From a virus: a DNA stretch of 21,068 nucleotides. A program made the translations under genes and the position numbers. Where the stretch lies: positions 1-21,068 of IMG/VR virus record IMGVR_UViG_3300021963_000778; one strand, given 5' to 3'. Under the pieces are notes generated by a model, which saw only the letters and a list, made by a program, of their open reading frames with translations, was not told the DNA's origin and searched no databases. How positions within the stretch are numbered: position 1 is the stretch's first letter; every line of letters begins with the position of its first letter. Of the stretch, positions 2,979 through 20,015 are shown in pieces.

Positions 2979-3295
2979 AAAATGAAGTTTATCACAATGG
3001 GGTTTTGATTAAAAAAATAGATTTGCGTGAACTTGCTGACGCAAAAAGGCTTAATATTGATTACAAAAAAGAGCAGGCAACTCAAGCTATTCAATCCGCC
3101 GGCCTAGACGAATCCACCCAACAAAACGCCGCCATCGGCATCTACCCGCCAGAGCGTTGCGAGGCGATCAAGTCCTACATCGCCGCCTGTCGAAACGAAT
3201 ACCTGCGTTGCAAGGCTCTGATCCTATCTGCCCAGACCAACGACGAGGCCGATGCCGTCCAGTTTGTCGCCCCGCCGGTGCCGGAGGGGATCTAG
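2975..3295 (+). CDS. Small accessory protein of the fibre region
   Basis: This encodes 106 residues and starts at the ATG in the ATGA overlap with the fibre gene. The N-terminal 40 residues are Lys-rich (YHNGVLIKKIDLRELADAKR). The rest is a helical region with RCEAIKSYIAACRNEYLRCKALI and ends in a Pro-rich tail (APPVPEG). I do not recognise a named family. The position directly after a fibre gene is where fibre-assembly chaperones often sit. Base composition changes abruptly inside the gene near 3097, A/T-rich before and G/C-rich after, so the two halves may have different histories. Confidence 0.75.
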   Translation: MKNEVYHNGVLIKKIDLRELADAKRLNIDYKKEQATQAIQSAGLDESTQQNAAIGIYPPERCEAIKSYIAACRNEYLRCKALILSAQTNDEADAVQFVAPPVPEGI

Positions 3296-3298
3296 TCC

Positions 3299-3580
3299 AT
3301 GTGGAAAACCCTCGCCATCTGGCTCACCAATTTGAGTTTGCGTTTCTTGATGACGCAAAAGGAGTACGCCTGTTTCAGGGAGGCTTTGAGGTTTGCCGGG
3401 GAGAACAACACGGTGGCGAGGGAAACGAAGTACATCGGGAAGGTGAAGCACCTGCTATCCGTCAACCGCTCGATCAAGCGCATTGTGGAGGAGGGTCGGG
3501 ATCGGGACGAGATTGTGGACGCTGTCGTGCATCTGGCTGTTGCGTTAAAGTATCTGGAGGGTAGGGGTCGTGAGTCTTGA
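3299..3580 (+). CDS. Hypothetical small helical protein
   Basis: This encodes 93 residues of unknown function. A GGAGGGG site lies upstream of ATG 3299. The N-terminus is amphipathic to hydrophobic (WKTLAIWLTNLSLRFLM) and could associate with a membrane. The rest is predicted by eye to be helical and charged (RSIKRIVEEGRDRDEIVDAV). It overlaps the next gene, which encodes a coiled-coil plus membrane-segment protein, by 11 bases. The two could form a lysis or membrane pair, but no motif proves this. Confidence 0.7.
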   Translation: MWKTLAIWLTNLSLRFLMTQKEYACFREALRFAGENNTVARETKYIGKVKHLLSVNRSIKRIVEEGRDRDEIVDAVVHLAVALKYLEGRGRES

Positions 3581-3824
3581 CGAGATCCATGAACTTCGGG
3601 AAAAATTCGGGTCGATGGCCGAGCGGCTGGCTAGGATGGAAGAGCGTCAAGTTACCCTGATCGGCATGGTGGAACGCTCTTTATCCAGCTTTGGCGACCT
3701 GTCCAATAGGGTGACTTCCCTGGAACACCTTAAAACCAAGATGCTCCTTGTGGCAGGCTCGATTGGTGCTATTGTCAGTGTGGTCTGGGATGCCGTACGC
3801 TCCAGACTTACCCCAGGAGGATAA
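3570..3824 (+). CDS. Coiled-coil protein with one C-terminal membrane segment (holin/XhlA-like candidate)
   Basis: This encodes 84 residues from GTG 3570, with GGAGG about nine bases upstream. Residues 3-52 are a charged heptad-like helix (LREKFGSMAERLARMEERQ, then LSNRVTSLEHLKTK). Residues 57-74 form a single hydrophobic segment (MLLVAGSIGAIVSVVW), followed by a short basic tail (DAVRSRLTPGG). A soluble coiled coil followed by one C-terminal transmembrane helix is the layout of XhlA-type haemolysin/holin-associated proteins. Many phage holin-like proteins also look like this. No classic endolysin gene is adjacent, so the lysis role is inferred from topology alone. Confidence 0.7.
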   Translation: MSLDEIHELREKFGSMAERLARMEERQVTLIGMVERSLSSFGDLSNRVTSLEHLKTKMLLVAGSIGAIVSVVWDAVRSRLTPGG

Positions 3825-4703
3825 ATGCCCACTTTAGGTACACAGAATATCTCGACCAGCTATCCGCAGCTTCTTAAGACTTTTGGTACGAGCGGCCTGC
3901 CATCGGCTGGTGCTGTTGAAGTTATCACAGATGGAGACAATACATCATCGGCTCTTTCGATTGGAATTGATGCCGTACAAAGCACCGGATCATTCACAGT
4001 TTCAAGCAATAGCAGTCTTCTTGGGCCTGTCACTTTCGGAACCAGCCTAACCGCATCCACTGGAACCGCCACCATCGGGACTCTTTCAGTTGGCACGGCT
4101 ACCATCAGCACGGCGACAATTCCTCTTCAGCTTGGGGCGATTACTTTCGGATCAAGCATCACAGCGTCAACTGGCACGGTTACTTTAGGAACGGCCACAA
4201 TCAGCACGGCAACAATTAGCAGTGCAACAATTCCAAGAATCAATGGAGCTACCACTTTTGCAACTGGTTTCACATCTTCGACTGGCACGAATACGATTGG
4301 GACTATTGAATCAACGACAATCAACAATAGCGGCCTTGTTACAGTTGGCACGCTGGAGATTGGCGGAACAGCAGGACCTCTTATAACAAAAGTATCCTAC
4401 GGAACGGCAGCGTTTACTGGCTCTACATTTCAAGACCTAGACTCAGCAACGGCTGGATCAAATGTTACAACAGGAACATTCACAGTAACAGGTGCAGCCT
4501 TGGGAGACATTGTCTTTGGTGGGCTTACATCAATTGGTTCAAGCACAGGCACAAACGCTACCTTAGCCCAAAGGCTAATTCCTTCGTTTAGGGTTGAATC
4601 GACAGATACGATTCGATATGTAATACTTAATACAGACACAGTTTCCCACGGCACAACTCCAGCAGGCACGCTATACGCAACCGCACTGAGGTTTGCGGCT
4701 TAA
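3825..4703 (+). CDS. Thr/Gly repeat fibre or spike protein
   Basis: This encodes 292 residues with a strong AGGAGG site four bases before ATG 3825. Residues ~60-170 are low-complexity repeats built on T-A-T-I and S-T-G-T units (for example TGTATIGTLSVGTATISTAT and ASTGTVTLGTATISTATI). They alternate polar and hydrophobic residues as in a beta-helical or trimeric shaft. The first ~50 residues and the last ~90 (VTGAALGDIVFGGLTSIGSS, FRVESTDTIRYVILN) are non-repetitive. The C-terminal piece resembles a small jelly-roll-like domain common at the end of appendage proteins. The protein is probably part of the host-contact apparatus. Confidence 0.75.
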   Translation: MPTLGTQNISTSYPQLLKTFGTSGLPSAGAVEVITDGDNTSSALSIGIDAVQSTGSFTVSSNSSLLGPVTFGTSLTASTGTATIGTLSVGTATISTATIPLQLGAITFGSSITASTGTVTLGTATISTATISSATIPRINGATTFATGFTSSTGTNTIGTIESTTINNSGLVTVGTLEIGGTAGPLITKVSYGTAAFTGSTFQDLDSATAGSNVTTGTFTVTGAALGDIVFGGLTSIGSSTGTNATLAQRLIPSFRVESTDTIRYVILNTDTVSHGTTPAGTLYATALRFAA

Positions 4704-4704
4704 T

Positions 4705-5646
4705 ATGGCAATTAAATTCAATCGCTCCCAGACTTTTGCCACCAACGGCACGGTGACTGCCGCCGGGTTGCACAACCTGATTGACGGCACGGACATCTAT
4801 CAGGCGTTGATCACTGACCAGACCAACCTTACTTCGGTTGGCTCCGGCGACGAGCTATTAATTGCCGATGCGGATTTAACCGCAAATGACGCGCCTCGCG
4901 CCGTTACGGTAAACGAGTTGTTTGAGGATGCGTTGACGATCAGCACCTACACCAACGCCAATATCAATAACATTTCCTACGGCACATCCACCGGCACTCG
5001 GCTTGTTTCCACCAATGCCTCAATCACTACCGGAACGATCCCGAGCCTTACCTCCAGCACGGCCAGCATCACTATTGGGACTATCCCGAATCTAACCGCA
5101 GGAACCACAACTTCGACTGCCGCCAACATCACCAACGGAACGATCCAGACGCTTACTTCAAGCACGGCCACGATTACGGGTGGAACATTCAGCGGATCGG
5201 TAAATAGCACGGTCGGAACAATTGGCAATTTCACAACCACGTTATCGGGCGATGTTACGATTAGCACAGGGACAGCAACTGTCGGCACCCGTGTAGCCGT
5301 GGTCAACACGGCTCAACAATATACCAGAGCACATAATTTTGCGGCTACTGCGCTGACCATTACCAGCGGAACCGTTCCCTGGGATCTGTCACAAAACCAA
5401 GTTGCAACTATTTCCGTCAATACAACCACAACCATGAATACGCCAACAAATCCGCAGGCTGGCGCAACCTATGTGCTAATCGTAACGCAAAGCGGTGGAA
5501 ATAATACTCTGTCTTTTAGTACGGCTTACAAGTTCACAGGTGGTAATGTTCCAGTTCTTTCAACTGGCGCATCTCAGGTTGATGTTCTTTCCTTTGTAAC
5601 AAACGGAACTGTACTCTACGGAGTATCTAGCCAGAACTTCTCGTAA
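4705..5646 (+). CDS. Second Thr/Gly repeat fibre or spike protein
   Basis: This encodes 313 residues. I chose ATG 4705 (MAIKFNRSQTF), two bases after the preceding stop, over the TTG at 4693. Residues ~1-85 form a non-repetitive head (HNLIDGTDIYQALITD, ADLTANDAPRAVTVNELFED) that resembles attachment domains of phage fibres. The centre has about four degenerate 15-19-residue repeats of the form TASITxGTIxxLTSS, a likely beta-structured shaft. The last ~100 residues hold AVVNTAQQYTRAHNFAATAL and a VATISVNTTTTMNTPTNPQ segment, a fold often seen at fibre tips. It is a neighbour and likely partner of the gene at 3825. Confidence 0.75.
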   Translation: MAIKFNRSQTFATNGTVTAAGLHNLIDGTDIYQALITDQTNLTSVGSGDELLIADADLTANDAPRAVTVNELFEDALTISTYTNANINNISYGTSTGTRLVSTNASITTGTIPSLTSSTASITIGTIPNLTAGTTTSTAANITNGTIQTLTSSTATITGGTFSGSVNSTVGTIGNFTTTLSGDVTISTGTATVGTRVAVVNTAQQYTRAHNFAATALTITSGTVPWDLSQNQVATISVNTTTTMNTPTNPQAGATYVLIVTQSGGNNTLSFSTAYKFTGGNVPVLSTGASQVDVLSFVTNGTVLYGVSSQNFS

Positions 5647-5652
5647 CCTACA

Positions 5653-8007
5653 ATGCCTTGGCCTGTCCATCCAAACGGCCTGCTTGGAGCGCAAGGCGAT
5701 AATGACTCCTACCGAGTTGAACGTAGCCTGCGGTTTAATTCGGCGGATTCTGCGTATTTGAATTGGACTGCGGCAAGCGCAACAAATCAGCAAGTAGTTA
5801 CTCTAAGTTTTTGGGTAAAGAGGAGCGCACTTGGAAGCCGACAGGCATTATTTTCATGGGCAGGAGTCTCAACTGGAAATAATCATTCCGTTGAATTTAC
5901 GGCATCAGATACAATAAATATCTATTCGGTTGGGACTGCGGCATCGCTAAACCTAAATTCAAGCCAAGTATTTAGAGATCCAAGCTCTTGGTATCATATT
6001 ATTTTCTCCGTTGATACAACTCAGGCAACTGCGTCAAACAGATTGCGTCTTTATGTGAATGGAGTGGAGGTAACATCATTCGGAACAGCAACATACCCAT
6101 CTCAAAACGCAAGCCTACAAATAAATTCAGCAAATGCGATAAACATAGGAAGAAGGGTTGATAATACGGGTGCTGGAATTTTCAACGGCTACCTCACCGA
6201 AATTAACTTCATTGACGGCCAAGCCCTAACCCCATCCAGCTTCGGCGAAACCGATGCCATCACAGGCCGCTGGAAGGCTAAGGCGTACAGTGGGACGTAT
6301 GGAACGAATGGGTTTTATCTGAAGTTTGCCGACAACAGCGGAACGACTGCAACAACGCTTGGGAAAGACTCAAGCTCAAACGGCAACAACTGGACTCCGA
6401 ATAACTTCTCCGTCACCGCAGGCGCAGACAACGACAGCCTTGTGGACAGCCCGACGAATTATGGTTCGGATACTGGATTAGGTGGTGAGGTGAGGGGGAA
6501 TTATGCAACGCTGAACTCAATCGCAGGAGGCGCATCCACACTGGTTGACGGGAATCTAAGACCATCCACGGACGGTATTCGTTTATCCACAATCGGAATG
6601 TCGTCAGGCAAGTGGTATGCCGAAATGAATGTGATTGCGGTTGGAACACAATCCGATTTTGGAATACATACTGGAACAGGATTTAATACCTACGTTGGAA
6701 GTACGTCATCTGGATATAGCTATAATAGTGATGGCAAAAAATACAATAACCTTACTGGTTCTGCCTATGGAGCAACCTACACGACCGGAGATGTAATTGG
6801 ATGTGCGTTTGATGCTGATGCTGGAACTATTGTTTTCTATAAAAATGGGGTTTCTCAAGGAACGGCATTTACTGGGCTAACAAGCGCACCATATTTCTTT
6901 GGCATTTACGGAAGGAGTTCGGCAACCGCAAACAATGTCTATATAAACTTCGGCCAACGCCCCTTTGCCTACGCCGCCCCTTCCGGCTTCAAGGCTCTCT
7001 GCACCCAGAACCTACCGCAACCGACAATCCAGAAGCCTAGCAAGTATATGGATGCCTTGGCCTACACCGGCACCGGCGCATCCAATGCCATCTCCAGCCT
7101 TAGCTTCAGCCCGGATCTGGTGTGGATTAAGAATCGTGGGACGACGACAAGCCACGCCATTTACGATACGACCAGAGTAGCGCAGTCACAGCTTTCCAGC
7201 GACACAACCGGGGATCAGGTCACAAGCTCAAGCGGTCTTACTTCATTCGATGCTAACGGTTTTACCATCGGAAATAGCACGCTAGTCAATACCAGCGGGA
7301 CGCAATATGTTGCATGGAGTTGGGATGAATCGGTTCAGGCCGGTATGGATATTGTGAGCTACACCGGCAACGGAGCTAATCGCACAATCTCGCACAATCT
7401 TGGCGTTGCTCCCAAAATGATTATTGTCAAGGCTCGCACCACGGCAGGGGCGGATCAGGGTTGGCCGGTATGGCATACGTCTATTGCCAATACCACATAC
7501 CTGACGTTAAACACAACTTCTGCTACCGCTACGGGTACAGATTACTGGAACTCCACCAGCCCAACATCCAGCGTCTTCTCGGTTGGAGCAAATGCAGCGG
7601 TTAATGCAAATAACGACACATATATCTCTTACCTGTTTTCCGAAATCGAAGGCTACTCCAAGTTCGGAAGCTACACCGGAAACGGATCAGCAGACGGGCC
7701 GTTTGTGTGGTGCGGGTTTAGGCCGAGGTGGTTGATGATTAAGAGGGCAGATACTCCGGCAGTTCTTACTGGATGGGGTATTAGCGATGCCGCAAGAAGC
7801 GATTCAAATGTTGTTTCTCTTGGATTTGCAGCAGATCAAAATCTTGCAGAGTTTTCTGGAAGCTCAACAACTGCATCTCCATACTTGGATTATTTATCAA
7901 ATGGATTTAAGTCAAGAAACACTGGAGGAGGTCAAAACGCATCTGGTGTTACTTACATCTTCGCCGCCTTTGCCGAATCACCTTTCAAATACGCCAGAGC
8001 AAGATAG
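5653..8007 (+). CDS. Large modular adhesin: LamG + SPRY + three DUF7483-like repeats
   Basis: This encodes 784 residues. Residues ~24-192 are a concanavalin A/LamG-type lectin domain (SLRFNSADSAYLNWT, VVTLSFWVKRS, WYHIIFSVDTT, RLRLYVNGVEVTSFG, GYLTEINFIDGQAL). Residues ~300-440 look like a SPRY/B30.2 domain (SSGKWYAEMNV, DVIGCAFDADAGTIVFYKNG, NNVYINFGQRPFAY). From ~470 there are three repeats of about 100 residues starting YTGTGASNAI, YTGNGANRTI and YTGNGSADGP. Each contains a PDLVWIK/PKMIIVK/RWLMIK strand, as in the DUF7483 phage family. The protein probably binds cell-surface glycans or proteins as a receptor-binding adhesin. DNA of the LamG and SPRY domains and of part of the last repeat is A/T-rich, while linkers are G/C-rich, suggesting module exchange. 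Confidence 0.85.
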   Translation: MPWPVHPNGLLGAQGDNDSYRVERSLRFNSADSAYLNWTAASATNQQVVTLSFWVKRSALGSRQALFSWAGVSTGNNHSVEFTASDTINIYSVGTAASLNLNSSQVFRDPSSWYHIIFSVDTTQATASNRLRLYVNGVEVTSFGTATYPSQNASLQINSANAINIGRRVDNTGAGIFNGYLTEINFIDGQALTPSSFGETDAITGRWKAKAYSGTYGTNGFYLKFADNSGTTATTLGKDSSSNGNNWTPNNFSVTAGADNDSLVDSPTNYGSDTGLGGEVRGNYATLNSIAGGASTLVDGNLRPSTDGIRLSTIGMSSGKWYAEMNVIAVGTQSDFGIHTGTGFNTYVGSTSSGYSYNSDGKKYNNLTGSAYGATYTTGDVIGCAFDADAGTIVFYKNGVSQGTAFTGLTSAPYFFGIYGRSSATANNVYINFGQRPFAYAAPSGFKALCTQNLPQPTIQKPSKYMDALAYTGTGASNAISSLSFSPDLVWIKNRGTTTSHAIYDTTRVAQSQLSSDTTGDQVTSSSGLTSFDANGFTIGNSTLVNTSGTQYVAWSWDESVQAGMDIVSYTGNGANRTISHNLGVAPKMIIVKARTTAGADQGWPVWHTSIANTTYLTLNTTSATATGTDYWNSTSPTSSVFSVGANAAVNANNDTYISYLFSEIEGYSKFGSYTGNGSADGPFVWCGFRPRWLMIKRADTPAVLTGWGISDAARSDSNVVSLGFAADQNLAEFSGSSTTASPYLDYLSNGFKSRNTGGGQNASGVTYIFAAFAESPFKYARAR

Positions 8008-8015
8008 GAGACCAT

Positions 8016-8279
8016 ATGTGGATCACATCAACCAATAACATCATCCGCCAACCCCAAGGCATCCGCATTGAAGATGTCAACCATCCGGCCAGCATCTTCT
8101 GGTGCTGGAGCAAGGAACAACTTGCCCAGATCGGGGTCAAGCCCTACCACCCGGCCAGCGTACCCGCTGGCGAAAGGGTCACAGGCGCGTATACTGAGGA
8201 GGTGGATGGCGAGGTGTACGAGCGTTTCAACACCGAGCCTATTCCGCAACCCGAGGAGCCAGTAAATGACCCTGTCTGA
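8016..8279 (+). CDS. Small accessory protein after the adhesin
   Basis: This encodes 87 residues with AGGAG six bases before ATG 8016. The sequence contains FWCWSKEQLAQIGVKPYHP followed by GERVTGAYTEEVDGEVYER and an acidic Pro-rich end (IPQPEEPVNDP). I remember this general pattern ('W-s-x-e-x-L-x-x-I-G-x-x-P-y ... v-d-G-x-v-y') from small proteins placed after tail fibres in phages, where an assembly role is suspected. No enzyme motif is visible. The last 14 bases overlap the next gene. Confidence 0.75.
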   Translation: MWITSTNNIIRQPQGIRIEDVNHPASIFWCWSKEQLAQIGVKPYHPASVPAGERVTGAYTEEVDGEVYERFNTEPIPQPEEPVNDPV

Positions 8280-8964
8280 AATAGCCCAATACGCCGGTGA
8301 GAAGGTCGGCAAGACCGACTCCGAAACGCTGACATTCCTCCAGAAAGCCGCAAGCTTGGCTTACCGCCGGGTCTGGAACTTTGCCCCTTGGCGCGAGACT
8401 GTCACCAGTTCCACCTACTCGGTCGGAACCAACCGCACCATCACCCTTGGAACCAACGTGGAGACCCCGCTCTCCGTATCCTATGACCAATCCGAAGTTG
8501 AACCCATCGACCTTGCCACCATCATCAGCCAAGACGCTGATCTGCTCGAAGACACCCGCACGGGTACTCCGGTGCTGTATCACTTTACTGGCCGCAATAC
8601 GAGCGGAGTTGCACAGCTTGATCTGTATCCGCGATTGGAAACTGCTGGGACGATAAGTCTGCGGGTGGTGGAGAAGCTGAAATGCCTTACCAGGACAAAC
8701 ATTATCGTTGATTTCCCGCCAACCACGCAGGCGTTGGATGACGAGCTTCGCCTACCCCACGTTCACCAGGTTGTGCTTTCGCTTACCCACGCCGATGCCT
8801 TGGAGCGTGAACGGCAATACGCCAAGGCGCAGTCAGTCGTTCAGACCGCCAATGCCGACCTTGCGGCGATGGCCAACTACGAACTGAGCCAGGTGGGCGG
8901 GATCAAGCAGATTACTCCGTCCAGCTTGGGCGACCTCACCACCGAAGAAATTACCGCCTCCTAA
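8266..8964 (+). CDS. Head-tail adaptor / tail tubular-like protein
   Basis: This encodes 232 residues starting at ATG 8266 inside the preceding gene, with GAGGAG upstream. The N-terminal helices (LSEIAQYAGEKVGKTDSET, FLQKAASLAYRRVWNFAPW) are typical of adaptor proteins that sit under the portal. A beta domain (PLSVSYDQSEVEPIDLATI, AQLDLYPRLETAGTISLRVV) follows. Next is a characteristic helical hairpin (LRLPHVHQVVLSLTHADALE, then RQYAKAQSVVQTANADLAAM), the signature of P22 gp4/T7 gp11-like phage adaptors. The protein should join portal and tail. Its stop overlaps the hub gene as TAATG. Confidence 0.7.
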   Translation: MTLSEIAQYAGEKVGKTDSETLTFLQKAASLAYRRVWNFAPWRETVTSSTYSVGTNRTITLGTNVETPLSVSYDQSEVEPIDLATIISQDADLLEDTRTGTPVLYHFTGRNTSGVAQLDLYPRLETAGTISLRVVEKLKCLTRTNIIVDFPPTTQALDDELRLPHVHQVVLSLTHADALERERQYAKAQSVVQTANADLAAMANYELSQVGGIKQITPSSLGDLTTEEITAS

Positions 8965-10883
8965 TGCCATACTACTCGGACAACCTCGACGACCTATTGG
9001 CGTTTGACGGCATCCGCAGTTTTGCGGGCGGTCAGGCCAGCGGTCTGCAATCAGACCTCTTGGCTGAGAACCAAGTTCAGCAGTTGGTCAATATGACCTT
9101 GTCACCAAAGGGCAGCCTTGAAACACGCAAGGGCGTTACAAGCTTTAGCACCACATCGACAAGTCAGAGGGGGTCGATTGGCGGGATGCGGTATTATGAT
9201 ACTTCGCAGTCCGAAAGGCTTGTGACAGTAACCCAAGGCAGACTTTATACAATTGATTCAAATGGGAATGCACAGTTACGTCCAGCAGATGAAATATGGA
9301 ACGACATTACAAGAACTTGGGGTAGCGAAAACCAGCAGTGGGCGGACGGTTTTTCGACAAACTTTGATGTCAAGGTCAGCATGGCGCAGTTCAACGACAA
9401 GATGTATCTGGCCGATGCGGATGGACCACTTTACTATTTTGACGGAAACACAACCGGAGGAACAGGGATTGCGACCAGACAGGGCGGCAAGGTAAGGGCG
9501 ATCACCATCTCAACCGGCGGAACAGGCTATACCAGCGCAACGGCTATCGTGACTGGGCCGGATTGGGGCGGCACGCTTCCAACCCTGATTACGCAAGTGG
9601 CCGGCGGGGCCGTCACCGGAGTAACCGTGGTGGATGGCGGTTCTGGCTATTCCGGCGCACCGACCGTGACAATTATTGGCAACGGCTCCGGTGCTACCGC
9701 AACCTCCACGGTAAGCCCGCCTCCGCTCAATCTCAGGCTTTTAATCAACACCGGCAACCGCCTATTTGGAGTCGGATCAGCCGGGAACCGCAACACGCTT
9801 TACGCTTCTGACATTCTGGATGCCTCAATTTGGGATGCGGCAAACTCGGTCGTCGTAAACGCCGATGACGGAGATGAGATCACCGCCATCGTTCCCTATT
9901 ACGAGAACCGAATCATCGTCTTCAAGAAACGGCGCATATTCCAAGTTACGATTCCTCCAGACATGACCAGCGCGGCGGATTGGGTGATCCAGCTTATCTC
10001 CAATAACACCGGTTGCGTGGCTGAAGGTTCCGCCGTACAGGTCAATTCCGACATTTTCTTCCTTTCCGATGACGGCATCCGCTCGCTGGTCCGGTCTGCG
10101 GCGGACGATTTCACCTCGGTAGGTCTGCCATTGTCAGAGGTCGTCAAGGATGTGATCCAGGAAATCAATGTTGCCAAGATAGGCATAGCTACTGCCCATT
10201 TTTACGACAACCGCTACTTCCTTGCGATACCCACCGCATCGAACGATTTTAACGATACCATCATTGTTTACAACACGGTGCTGGGCGCATTTGAGGGAAC
10301 ATGGACTCCGAATGTCATGCAGTTTGCTTTGACCAATTTCCAAGATCAAGGCTTGCGGTTGATGATGAAATTGACAACGGGGCAGATTACCAAGTATAGC
10401 GGATACAAGACTCCGGCACAGGTCACAACCGCAGATTATCAGGATTTTGGAGTTTACACCACAACCTATGGAACGACCACAACGACATCAACCGGCGTGT
10501 TTAACTACGAGTCTTATGTCCGAACAAAGGACTTTAATTTCGGCGATCCATTTGCGGTAAAATATGGAAGTCATTTTGAGGTTATTTTCGACGATTCATT
10601 TTCGACCGATACGACCATCTCCATCCAGCGGGACATCGACGTTGGAGATATTGACGTTCAGCCCAACCTCAATGTTTCCAGCGCAGCCCTTACACTAGAG
10701 TTTCAATTGCCCGCTCAGTTGCCATCCTCGGTCAAGAAAAGGCTTGCCAGCGATCTTCGGACATATCAGAAATGGCGTTTGTTGAATATCAAGATTGCCA
10801 GTGCGGCCAATAAGCTCGCCATCCGCCAAATCACGGCTGCGGCCAATCCTGACACCATTGAGGTGCAGAAGAACATCTCGTGA
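8964..10883 (+). CDS. Tail hub / stabilization protein (P22 gp10- or T7 gp12-like)
   Basis: This encodes 639 residues. Beta-propeller-like blades are seen along the protein (ERLVTVTQGRLYTIDSNG, KMYLADADGPLYYFDG, NRLFGVGSAGNRNTLYAS, RIIVFKKRRIFQVTI, DIFFLSDDGIRSLVR, NRYFLAIPTASNDFNDTI). This is the plan of the stabilization proteins of podovirus tails, which form the hub or nozzle. Near the start is LVNMTLSPKGSLETRKGV, a usual opening for the family. Residues ~173-252 form an insert with two GGxGYxxxxxV-type beta repeats. The gene lies directly after the adaptor, as expected for a tail assembly operon. Its last bases GTGA overlap the next start. Confidence 0.75.
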   Translation: MPYYSDNLDDLLAFDGIRSFAGGQASGLQSDLLAENQVQQLVNMTLSPKGSLETRKGVTSFSTTSTSQRGSIGGMRYYDTSQSERLVTVTQGRLYTIDSNGNAQLRPADEIWNDITRTWGSENQQWADGFSTNFDVKVSMAQFNDKMYLADADGPLYYFDGNTTGGTGIATRQGGKVRAITISTGGTGYTSATAIVTGPDWGGTLPTLITQVAGGAVTGVTVVDGGSGYSGAPTVTIIGNGSGATATSTVSPPPLNLRLLINTGNRLFGVGSAGNRNTLYASDILDASIWDAANSVVVNADDGDEITAIVPYYENRIIVFKKRRIFQVTIPPDMTSAADWVIQLISNNTGCVAEGSAVQVNSDIFFLSDDGIRSLVRSAADDFTSVGLPLSEVVKDVIQEINVAKIGIATAHFYDNRYFLAIPTASNDFNDTIIVYNTVLGAFEGTWTPNVMQFALTNFQDQGLRLMMKLTTGQITKYSGYKTPAQVTTADYQDFGVYTTTYGTTTTTSTGVFNYESYVRTKDFNFGDPFAVKYGSHFEVIFDDSFSTDTTISIQRDIDVGDIDVQPNLNVSSAALTLEFQLPAQLPSSVKKRLASDLRTYQKWRLLNIKIASAANKLAIRQITAAANPDTIEVQKNIS

Positions 10884-18967: not shown

Positions 18968-18994
18968 GCGTAAAAAGTATAATGAGTTGGCGTG
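18968..18994. promoter_or_regulatory. Compact divergent promoter region
   Basis: This A/T-rich 27-base gap separates two divergent genes. On the + strand a perfect TATAAT lies at 18978-18983. The predicted transcription start (about seven bases on) would fall at or next to the GTG/ATG start of the rightward gene. No good -35 is seen at 16-18 bases. On the - strand, TATACT (18981-18976) has a TTGACC (19002-18997) 15 bases upstream, and its start would fall at or next to the ATG at 18967. Both genes lack a good ribosome binding site, so leaderless or near-leaderless transcripts are likely. Confidence 0.45.
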
Positions 18995-19393
18995 ATGGTC
19001 AACACAAAAGTGAAACTTAATAACAGGCAGATTGGGGCGGTCGGTGTGGCCAGGGTGGCGGGTGCGCTGTTCAGGAACGGGTACAGCGTGCTTGTGCCGA
19101 TGGAGGACTTCGGACATGGGTATGATATTGTCGCAGAGAAAAACGGAAAGTTCTTTAGGATTCAGGTCAAGACAACCGCAAAGGCCGAGGACCGAAAACT
19201 TCATTATCGCTTTATGACATCTGGTGGAAAAAATCGAAAGACAACCTACACAAAAACCATGGTAGATTATATTGTCTGCTGGGCGATGGACGAGGATCTG
19301 TTCTGGCTTCTTGAGCCATCGGATTGCAAGGCACCAACCAAGAAATTCTATCCACAAACAGGCTCATCATGGCGAATCATAAACGATCTCTGA
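18995..19393 (+). CDS. I-Ssp6803I-like PD-(D/E)XK protein with altered motif I
   Basis: This encodes 132 residues from ATG 18995; an in-frame GTG at 18992 is an alternative. The sequence VARVAGALFRNGYSVLVPME, then GHGYDIVAEKNGKFFRIQVK, matches the group I intron endonuclease family of PD-(D/E)XK proteins (I-Ssp6803I type, with Q-x-K in place of E-x-K). Asp44, Gln57 and Lys59 keep the family spacing. The motif-I Glu expected around residue 19 is Ala, so activity may be weakened or the residue supplied elsewhere. No intron is evident around it. It could be a free-standing homing-type nuclease, a restriction-like effector, or a DNA-repair nuclease. It overlaps a 60-residue gene by 25 bases. Confidence 0.7.
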   Translation: MVNTKVKLNNRQIGAVGVARVAGALFRNGYSVLVPMEDFGHGYDIVAEKNGKFFRIQVKTTAKAEDRKLHYRFMTSGGKNRKTTYTKTMVDYIVCWAMDEDLFWLLEPSDCKAPTKKFYPQTGSSWRIINDL

Positions 19394-19565: not shown

Positions 19566-19580
19566 GCCCCAATGTGGGGC
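19566..19580 (+). promoter_or_regulatory. Short GC hairpin before the nuclease start
   Basis: GCCCC (19566-19570) pairs with GGGGC (19576-19580) around an AATGT loop, ending directly at the ATG at 19581 and holding the alternative ATG 19572 in its loop. No ribosome binding site is clear for either start. The stem could limit start choice or translation, or be chance, because it has only five pairs. Confidence 0.3.
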
Positions 19581-20015
19581 ATGGCAATCAATTCAAGACG
19601 CAAGGGCGCGGCAGGCGAGCGGGAGTTTGCATCTTACCTAAGAGAGCAAGGCTGGCAGAAAGCACGGCGCACCCAACAATATGCCGGTGATCCCGAAGGC
19701 GGTTCCGGGGATGTGGTCTGCGCGAACTTCCCATTTCATTGCGAGGTCAAGCGTTGCCAGCAGATCAAACCGGAGCAATGGATGGCGCAGGCCAAAGGCG
19801 ATGCGCCGGAGGGCAAGATCCCGGCGGTGTTCTTTCGCCGCAACGGAGAGAAGAAGTGGTTGGCCATCATTGAGGCCGACGACCTTTGCGAGATCGCTCG
19901 CCATATTGCCCCACCAAATTTCACGGTCGATGTTGTCCAGACCGCGCCAGTTGCCACGACCGTAGCCCAAGGATTTGTAATGCCTTCCACCCCACTAAAC
20001 CCAAACCAAATATAG
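19581..20015 (+). CDS. Resolvase-like PD-(D/E)XK nuclease
   Basis: This encodes 144 residues from ATG 19581 (MAINSRRKGAAGEREFASYL); the ATG at 19572 would add MWG. The opening is the hallmark of a phage endonuclease family related to Holliday-junction resolvases. A complete catalytic set is visible: Glu13 (AAGERE), Asp44 (GSGDVV) and Glu55-Val-Lys57 (CEVKR). Downstream are QWMAQAKGDAPEGKIPAVFF and KKWLAIIEADDLCEI, which also fit the family. The C-terminal 30 residues are likely flexible (Pro/Thr-rich). The enzyme probably cuts branched or structured DNA during phage replication or before packaging. It sits next to ssDNA-binding and exonuclease genes. Confidence 0.8.
   Translation: MAINSRRKGAAGEREFASYLREQGWQKARRTQQYAGDPEGGSGDVVCANFPFHCEVKRCQQIKPEQWMAQAKGDAPEGKIPAVFFRRNGEKKWLAIIEADDLCEIARHIAPPNFTVDVVQTAPVATTVAQGFVMPSTPLNPNQI

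Follow-up and report, generated by a model that had tools for sequence, protein, structure and literature searches.

The gene at positions 5653-8007 (plus strand) of IMG/VR record IMGVR_UViG_3300021963_000778, a 21-kb record labelled as a virus, very probably encodes an adhesin of the tail fibre whose evolution proceeds by cassettes in three slots, with exchange at conserved joints. The whole stretch analysed, positions 1 to 21,068 of the record, is referred to as the window. The three slots, a LamG-like domain, a SPRY domain and the distal part of DUF7483 (DUFc), are each filled by one of many highly divergent alleles. A previous examination of the window by eye (the sequence-only reading) had noted two linkers, which correspond to the conserved blocks L1 and L2. 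The segments of the 784-residue protein are listed here, where 4-fold GC is the guanine plus cytosine (GC) content at fourfold degenerate sites and tract edges are the abrupt ends of near-identical tracts described below.

5653-8007, plus strand: probable phage tail-fibre or adhesin gene, 784 amino acids, in the order LamG, L1, SPRY, L2, DUF7483 (Pfam, PHROG, relatives)
5653-5742, plus strand: N-terminal block, residues 1-30 (in 20-residue windows, linked at r 0.57-0.88 to the 8964 gene)
5743-6192, plus strand: cassette 1, LamG-like jelly roll, residues 31-180, hypervariable (4-fold GC 0.25 over residues 19-180; model strands 25-28 to 179-188)
6193-6510, plus strand: conserved block L1, residues 181-286, linker 1 of the sequence-only reading (consensus; 4-fold GC 0.61 over residues 181-284; exchange edges at both ends)
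6511-6951, plus strand: cassette 2, SPRY, residues 287-433, hypervariable (Pfam, Foldseek; 4-fold GC 0.37 over residues 285-434)
6952-7047, plus strand: conserved block L2, residues 434-465, linker 2 of the sequence-only reading (consensus 0.76-0.89; 4-fold GC 0.69; 224 of 991 tract edges at residues 426-450)
7048-7728, plus strand: DUF7483 proximal and middle repeats, residues 466-692, intermediate conservation (Pfam, consensus; r 0.43-0.78 with the gene at 8964 in 20-residue windows over residues 461-580)
7603-7749, plus strand: fourth junction zone, residues 651-699, preceding the last cassette (67 of 991 tract edges; consensus 0.79-0.85 at residues 661-690)
7729-7956, plus strand: cassette 3, distal DUF7483 (DUFc), residues 693-768, hypervariable (4-fold GC 0.07 over residues 691-766; 30 near-identical pairs)
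7957-8007, plus strand: conserved C-terminus, residues 769-784, and stop codon (median nucleotide identity 0.92 to 21 loci of the same lineage)

Evidence for independent movement of the cassettes

Exchange was analysed in 169 distinct full-length sequences out of 323 L1-bearing reading frames, filtered for one hit each to LamG, L1, L2, DUFa and DUFc, a length of 650-900 amino acids and a position away from the contig end. Dereplication at 98% left 161 sequences from IMG/VR metagenome contigs, or 12,880 pairs. A DNA identity of at least 90% was found in 11 pairs for LamG, 12 for SPRY and 30 for DUFc, and another cassette was below 65% identity in 10, 11 and all 30 of these pairs, respectively. 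Loci L010 and L029, for example, have LamG cassettes with an identity of 1.00, SPRY cassettes at 0.39 and DUFc at 0.52; for L017 and L046, DUFc is at 0.99, LamG at 0.58 and SPRY at 0.37. Across pairs the cassette identities are nearly uncorrelated (LamG-SPRY 0.15, LamG-DUFc 0.13, SPRY-DUFc 0.07), and the halves within one segment correlate at 0.27-0.66. The identities of L1 and L2 correlate at 0.55, even though the SPRY cassette that lies between them correlates with them at 0.14 and 0.17.

A comparable picture emerged for linkage to the gene at 8964-10883, which was assessed in 43 sequences (903 pairs). The identity of this gene, whose own two halves correlate at 0.99, is correlated with the nucleotide identity of L1 (0.67), L2 (0.49), DUFa (0.71) and DUFb (0.45), with values for the cassettes of 0.13 (LamG), 0.10 (SPRY) and 0.18 (DUFc). 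In windows of 20 residues, linkage is 0.57-0.88 at the N-terminus, -0.03 to 0.18 in LamG, 0.40-0.71 at residues 191-280, -0.04 to 0.20 in SPRY, 0.41-0.78 at residues 441-580 and 0.00-0.26 in DUFc. It is already low in the windows at the joint edges, 181-200 (0.19), 271-290 (0.06) and 431-450 (0.06), despite mean identities of 0.79, 0.69 and 0.78, as expected if crossovers are located there. Trees of six segments from the 43 sequences each reject the other five (approximately unbiased test, p <= 0.0023), and no two of them have more than 2 of 40 splits in common. These sequence comparisons show that the cassettes move independently of each other and of the neighbouring genes.

The same is seen within the lineage of the window, defined as the 21 of 169 loci with more than 90% nucleotide identity in the gene at 8266 (18 after dereplication; the 22 rows at an identity of at least 0.90 include three near-duplicates). 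Median identities to the window are 0.79 upstream of the fibre gene, 0.74 for the N-terminus, 0.84 for L1, 0.89 for L2, 0.76 for DUFa, 0.66 for DUFb, 0.92 for the C-terminal end and 0.96 for the next gene, and those of LamG, SPRY and DUFc are 0.49, 0.49 and 0.53, with maxima of 0.58, 0.60 and 0.60. No close copy of the window's LamG was found among 68 loci (not exceeding 64% over 61 residues, or 54% over stretches of more than 100) and none of its SPRY among 30 loci (at most 55%), nor was there a close copy of either in the set of 161 sequences.

Of 18 annotated phage regions in the databases, 14 were compared (91 pairs, with figures from the 25 pairs listed); RB11-B, RN05-S, HTVC202P and ACG-2014e were left out on account of their different gene layout, and ctXG6705, one of the 14, derives from an environmental sample. 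The cultured phages HTVC011P (Stopavirus) and Greip, both listed with HTCC1062 as host, directly show an exchanged SPRY, which they share at 0.92, with LamG at 0.58 and DUFc at 0.61. The pairs HTVC204P-Greip (L1 0.92, L2 0.91, C-terminal end 1.00; LamG 0.60, SPRY 0.55) and HTVC103P-HTVC104P (L1 0.87, L2 0.90; LamG 0.54, SPRY 0.53) are compatible with exchange but do not prove it.

Patterns of this last kind, with joints kept and cassettes diverged, make up most of the database-phage pairs and would, taken alone, also fit divergence by point mutation under diversifying selection, with linkers under purifying selection and no exchange at all. The linkers do face purifying selection, as only 0.41 (L1) and 0.46 (L2) of 4-fold sites at shared residues are identical, values that lie above the composition expectation of 0.27 and 0.30. 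Near-identical cassettes in otherwise different fibres, however, rule out divergence without exchange as the whole explanation, and different cassettes within one lineage, the mutual rejection of the segment trees and the HTVC011P-Greip pair also speak against it, so that we regard it as very improbable. A diversity-generating retroelement or a similar targeted mutator would likewise produce hypervariable segments flanked by constant ones, but the re-use of near-identical cassettes between phages and the size of the variable stretches, which at about 75-150 residues comprise whole domains, make it extremely unlikely that the variable parts are rewritten in this way. No template-like repeat of the variable parts was found at 3000-10000 of the window, which is a fragment in which some of the genes were scanned; for this reason the absence of a reverse transcriptase says little.

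Since the 161 sequences are metagenome contigs, one might suspect that joints common to co-occurring phages misled the assemblers; such misjoins are expected at precisely these joints, and the direct evidence for exchange in database phages is a single pair. That pair, HTVC011P-Greip, nevertheless shows the pattern, and the same mosaic gene was assembled from separate data sets without any difference in eight of nine pairs and with one difference in the ninth; the nine pairs include L017/L018 and L046/L047, which contain members of exchange pairs. In addition, no cassette of the window was matched in the 21 loci of its lineage. Assembly chimeras thus have very little chance of accounting for the mosaic structure.

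Location of the switch points

A scan that was not seeded on the cassettes detected 820 near-identical tracts in 523 of the 12,880 pairs, with 991 abrupt ends. Cassette interiors, which represent 41% of the length, contain six of these edges in LamG and none in SPRY or DUFc. The four main joint zones hold 737 of the 991, namely the borders of LamG and L1 (215), L1 and SPRY (231), and SPRY and L2 (224) and residues 651-699 (67). The remaining edges are located at the N-terminal border of LamG (57), in the core of L1 (54) and of L2 (77), in DUFa/b (54) and in the N-terminus (6). Collapsing by position and group, with position bins that shift a few edges over zone borders, gave 206 components, of which 153 fall in linker and junction zones (29% of the length) and seven in cassette interiors. 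The tract ends of near-identical cassette pairs recur at residues 177-193, 271-289, 431-432, 468-477, 586-593 and 655-682. The two linker peptides named in the sequence-only reading overlap the LamG-L1 zone (171-195) and the SPRY-L2 zone (426-450), and its proposal that linkers are recombination points for swapping binding domains is supported by the independent movement of the cassettes and by the clustering of switch points at the joints. We infer that homologous recombination probably takes place with the joints as crossover sites.

Several observations weigh against cassette exchange at the joints. The gene at 8266 is barely linked to the fibre segments, including the joints (L1 0.04, L2 0.19, with a maximum of 0.38 for DUFa), and the tree of the joints (L1 and L2) conflicts with that of the 8964 gene, sharing 2 of 40 splits, which implies either that recombination affects the joints as well or that they are poorly resolved. 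Among the 25 database-phage pairs listed out of 91, HTVC011P-Greip is the only one with a near-identical cassette beside diverged ones. The edges and pairs are non-independent events. Moreover, edge position is partly a matter of detectability, as selected joints stay similar and a crossover within a joint shows at its border, and crossovers occurring anywhere, followed by selection that spares only those at joints, would lead to the same pattern.

With cassette exchange at the joints as the preferred explanation, we propose that co-infecting relatives would recombine through the joints, whose DNA is homologous (median identity 0.84-0.89 within the lineage). The outer strands contributed by the joints would complete the jelly-roll folds, enabling most alleles to fold in most backbones. 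Each exchange would then alter the putative surface glycan or protein bound by the fibre, and new cassette combinations could arise without rebuilding the whole fibre.

Domains of the fibre and contents of the slots

Pfam places DUF7483 (PF24299) at residues 461-777 (E 3.1e-95, above cut-off) and SPRY at residues 345-434 (E 2.1e-15). PHROG 19943 (virion structural protein, 9.6e-186) and PHROG 24898 (tail fiber, 1e-70) are two of the five PHROG families matched, and from these labels for a virion and binding role the protein is probably a host-binding fibre. Of 377 relatives 80 were retained, each of which aligns along one reading frame; three are cut (residues 178-784, 155-784 and 1-710). DUF7483 is present in all 63 aligned members of the LamG-SPRY-DUF7483 fibre family and Laminin_G_3 matched in 20 of them. 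A Pfam LamG match at 0.01 was not found in the window's own protein; its first slot is strand-rich in the structural model, and the laminin and neurexin Foldseek matches there span several domains at high root-mean-square deviation. The AlphaFold2 model (59 sequences; mean predicted local distance difference test score (pLDDT) 78.8, predicted template modelling score 0.50) consists almost entirely of strands, and its top Foldseek matches are SPRY structures, with target-normalised template modelling scores of at most 0.86 among the 50 shown. Strands flank the LamG cassette at residues 25-28 and 179-188 and the SPRY cassette at 287-292 and 428-431, so that each of the two presumed jelly rolls begins and ends inside a conserved block or adjacent to one. 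Parts of L1 (227-235 and 249-282) have a pLDDT below 50.

Conservation was determined from 69 sequences (71 of 80 loci aligned, with nine duplicates omitted, less three duplicates removed by script, plus the window); eight of the nine omitted duplicates have no differences and one has a single difference. As 15-residue means, the consensus frequency is 0.80-0.94 at residues 181-285, 0.76-0.89 at 436-465, 0.79-0.85 at 661-690 and 0.80 at 766-784, and ranges from 0.29 to 0.77 in the three cassettes. With 0.76-0.94 for the joints, the idea that the linkers are no more conserved than the domains can be dismissed. Both peptides that the sequence-only reading had named as stereotyped linkers lie in or at conserved blocks, INFIDGQALTPSSFGE at residues 184-199 (6202-6249) within L1 and FGQRPFAYAAPSGFKAL at residues 433-449 (6949-6999) at the start of L2, but its picture needs refining, as the first block extends over about 106 residues (181-286). 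A third conserved block (about 661-690), ahead of the last variable segment, can be added to its two linkers; the conserved stretch GYSKFGSYTGNGSADGPFVWCGFRPR lies in the fourth junction zone (residues 651-699).

Most of the 323 L1-bearing reading frames, in which overlapping loci are counted, have the order LamG, L1, SPRY, L2, DUF7483. The gap between L1 and L2 (n = 304) measures 130-189 residues in 279 cases, 120-129 in two, 110-119 in 16 and at least 390 in seven. The SPRY profile is not matched by 14 distinct gap sequences, of which five have 112-114 residues, seven have 144-176 and two are long. The five short gaps (L025, L029, L045, L046 and L213) resemble one shrunken SPRY class (mini-SPRY), and in L029 and L213 of this class Pfam SPRY was not found at 0.1. 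The two long gaps show a second LamG-like stretch by eye. The slots therefore keep their fold, and divergent alleles are swapped, usually not different domain types; exceptions are rare. On the question raised in the sequence-only reading, whether different domains lie between the same linkers, the contents do differ, but these are mostly alleles of the same fold, making the swapping allelic. The loci in which a second LamG-like stretch can be seen by eye between the joints include L125, L127 and a few others, and some fibre architectures carry a nested second DUF7483.

Synonymous composition of cassettes and joints

In the window's gene, sliding-window GC is 0.39-0.47 at about 5700-6200, 0.52-0.54 at about 6150-6550, 0.39-0.44 at about 6600-6950, 0.53-0.61 at about 6900-7200 and 0.39-0.42 at about 7750-8000, and by segment it is 0.42 for LamG, 0.53 for L1, 0.42 for SPRY, 0.60 for the L2 join and 0.40 for the distal last repeat. 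This bears out the sequence-only reading, according to which LamG, SPRY and the distal last repeat are AT-rich and the joins GC-rich. The standard deviation of GC in 150-bp windows was matched by only 0.2% of 2,000 codon shuffles and by none of 2,000 resamplings in which the protein was fixed and synonymous codons were redrawn; together with the computed plot, this excludes a uniform composition. Against codon shuffles the lowest and highest single windows are unremarkable (p 0.20 and 0.09); they are moderately extreme against synonymous resampling (p 0.036 and 0.012). Third codon positions carry most of the contrast, with first and second positions nearly alike in GC between segments, and 4-fold GC is 0.25 in LamG, 0.61 in L1, 0.37 in SPRY, 0.69 in L2 and 0.07 in DUFc. 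The contrast between cassettes and joints is mainly synonymous. Pooled over the 69 sequences, L1 and L2 lie above LamG and SPRY in all eight 4-fold codon families, narrowly so for leucine and arginine.

In the 155 of 161 genomes with enough flanking sites, the cassettes are on average 0.14 below the flanking genes in 4-fold GC (lower in 120, 128 and 120 genomes for the three cassettes), and the mean excess over these genes is 0.09 for L1 and 0.14 for L2. The slope on flanking 4-fold GC is 0.44-0.55 for the cassettes and 0.76-0.80 for L1 and L2. Among the 14 database phages, the Roseobacter phage CRP-811 is the sole clear match to the pattern of the window (4-fold GC 0.31 in LamG, 0.64 in L1, 0.26 in SPRY, 0.59 in L2, 0.43 in DUFa, 0.43 in DUFb and 0.18 in DUFc), and MEP301 shows it weakly. 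In the ten pelagiphages 4-fold GC is near zero throughout (at most 0.16 from LamG to DUFc), and it is also low throughout in SS120-1 and ctXG6705.

The low slopes and the position of the cassettes below their neighbouring genes are what one would expect if the AT-rich stretches were recent imports from an AT-rich donor phage that have not adapted to the genome. The same slots have low synonymous GC, however, across genomes of very different GC (in 120, 128 and 120 of the 155), which indicates that the AT-richness is no sign of a recent import by the window's phage; trading within the family alone cannot depress the family mean, and neither the LamG nor the SPRY of the window had a close copy in the searches. 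A recent import is therefore unlikely.

Alternatively, composition may track conservation or translation, with conserved stretches keeping GC-ending codons, fast-changing ones drifting to AT, and exchange being incidental to composition. We give this view, which is compatible with cassette exchange, a little less than an even chance. Along the protein, 4-fold GC correlates at 0.84 with conservation and at 0.65 with backbone linkage; the partial correlation with linkage given conservation is 0.13, that with conservation given linkage 0.70, and at the 20-residue scale conservation accounts for 4-fold GC better than linkage does. Backbone linkage as the cause of the AT-richness is thus unsupported once conservation is removed. 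Columns with a consensus above 0.9 have a 4-fold GC of 0.45 in LamG and 0.37 in SPRY, richer than the remainder of these cassettes, and of 0.27 in DUFc, versus 0.54 in L1 and 0.56 in L2. At a consensus of 0.7-0.9, the values are 0.29, 0.26 and 0.15 for the three cassettes versus 0.49 and 0.63 for L1 and L2. Column conservation alone was therefore rejected as the cause, since cassettes are AT-richer than joints at equal conservation, although the difference is smaller in columns of the highest conservation. The relation is also inconsistent in four neighbouring genes (r 0.53, -0.16, 0.80 and 0.35; 0.46 over 71 windows).

In the exchange mechanism proposed above, AT-rich synonymous composition would be a class trait of exchanged, fast-evolving cassettes, which would track genome GC less than the joints do and sit below it. 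The shift may be due to GC-biased conversion at the joints, to a circulating pool that leans towards AT or to a relaxation of codon selection where the sequence evolves fast. Only tentatively, we suggest that circulating cassettes could reach a low 4-fold GC that depends little on the genome, and that codon selection or GC-biased conversion could keep the crossover joints at the GC of the genome or above it. If this held generally, a single sequence would suffice to recognise the recombination units of a phage adhesin, as was done by eye in the sequence-only reading.

Relation to known systems

The closest likeness is with the T-even adhesin gp38, with which Tetart et al. are said to have dealt in 1998, and in which hypervariable receptor-binding segments alternate with conserved glycine-rich motifs. 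It is a precedent for adhesin exchange at conserved motifs, and mosaic adhesins are already known. In the window's fibre, too, hypervariable segments lie between conserved motifs at which exchange appears to occur. In contrast to gp38, the variable units here are whole LamG and SPRY jelly rolls and a DUF7483 tip, the phages are others, and the units are accompanied by a contrast in synonymous composition. PMC12892980 describes a gp38 fold with a polyglycine-II sandwich; the gp38 family was not among the Pfam and PHROG matches of the fibre, whose best structural matches are SPRY domains. The window's fibre probably works like gp38 but is not classed as a member of the gp38 family.

Bellas et al. 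2020 (PMC7468147) and Mizuno et al. 2014 (PMC3909814) have reported near-identical phage cores with variable host-recognition regions; in the former, variants are re-used at nucleotide identities as low as about 40-46%. As far as consulted, these accounts concern genes and regions, and in Mizuno et al. also single domains within a gene, whereas here several independent slots lie in one gene, whose switch zones were mapped. Smug et al. 2023 (PMC10684548) describe a mosaicism of domains in phage proteins, fibres among them; the definition given there requires otherwise non-homologous proteins or domains and would probably miss the fold-preserving homologous alleles seen here. Literature searches, in which subscription journals were thinly covered and a minority of the papers listed were consulted, returned no description of a three-slot LamG-SPRY-DUF7483 fibre or a matching synonymous contrast, and no paper on a phage tail fiber with LamG and SPRY, on DUF7483 or on low-GC variable domains.

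Fibres of pelagiphages, cyanophages, Roseobacter phages and Methylophilales phages have the same domain order, with 32-43% identity among the 40 matches listed, and 46 of 74 records of LamG-SPRY-DUF7483 fibres match the query over 80% or more of its length. Where the window has a single gene, the ten pelagiphages compared have a fibre of two genes, split near the L2 joint; the L2 joint thus tolerates a gene break. The two fibre genes in these pelagiphage records (L331-L340) are adjacent and often overlap, and HTVC202P (L347) has three genes there. For HTVC103P and HTVC104P, tblastn finds two fibre places per genome, suggesting a duplicated fibre module. Our results lead to a combinatorial model with three slots for how host recognition evolves in a widespread family of fibres, for which the joints are mapped and many natural alleles are available. 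They make it testable whether each slot binds a different receptor and whether exchange units within a gene can be recognised by their synonymous composition.

Other genes of the window

For the capsid gene (5-763) and the stabilisation-like gene (8964-10883), only remote matches were found in the phage collection (24.5-31.2% identity among the matches listed), and the backbone therefore seems to come from a lineage without a close member in that collection. The gene at 2253-2978 has one homolog among the fetched loci at the thresholds applied, compared with 26-41 for nearby genes, and may be lineage-specific, although many loci end before it. In the repeat-rich gene at 3825-4703, conservation drops to 0.63-0.75 at residues 181-260 in its C-terminal part (about 4365-4600), where 4-fold GC is lower, at 0.30-0.39; this stretch is possibly another variable region. 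Finally, genes for PD-(D/E)XK nucleases at 18992-19393 and 19572-20015 (PF11645 and PF24608) are possibly parts of a phage recombination module.

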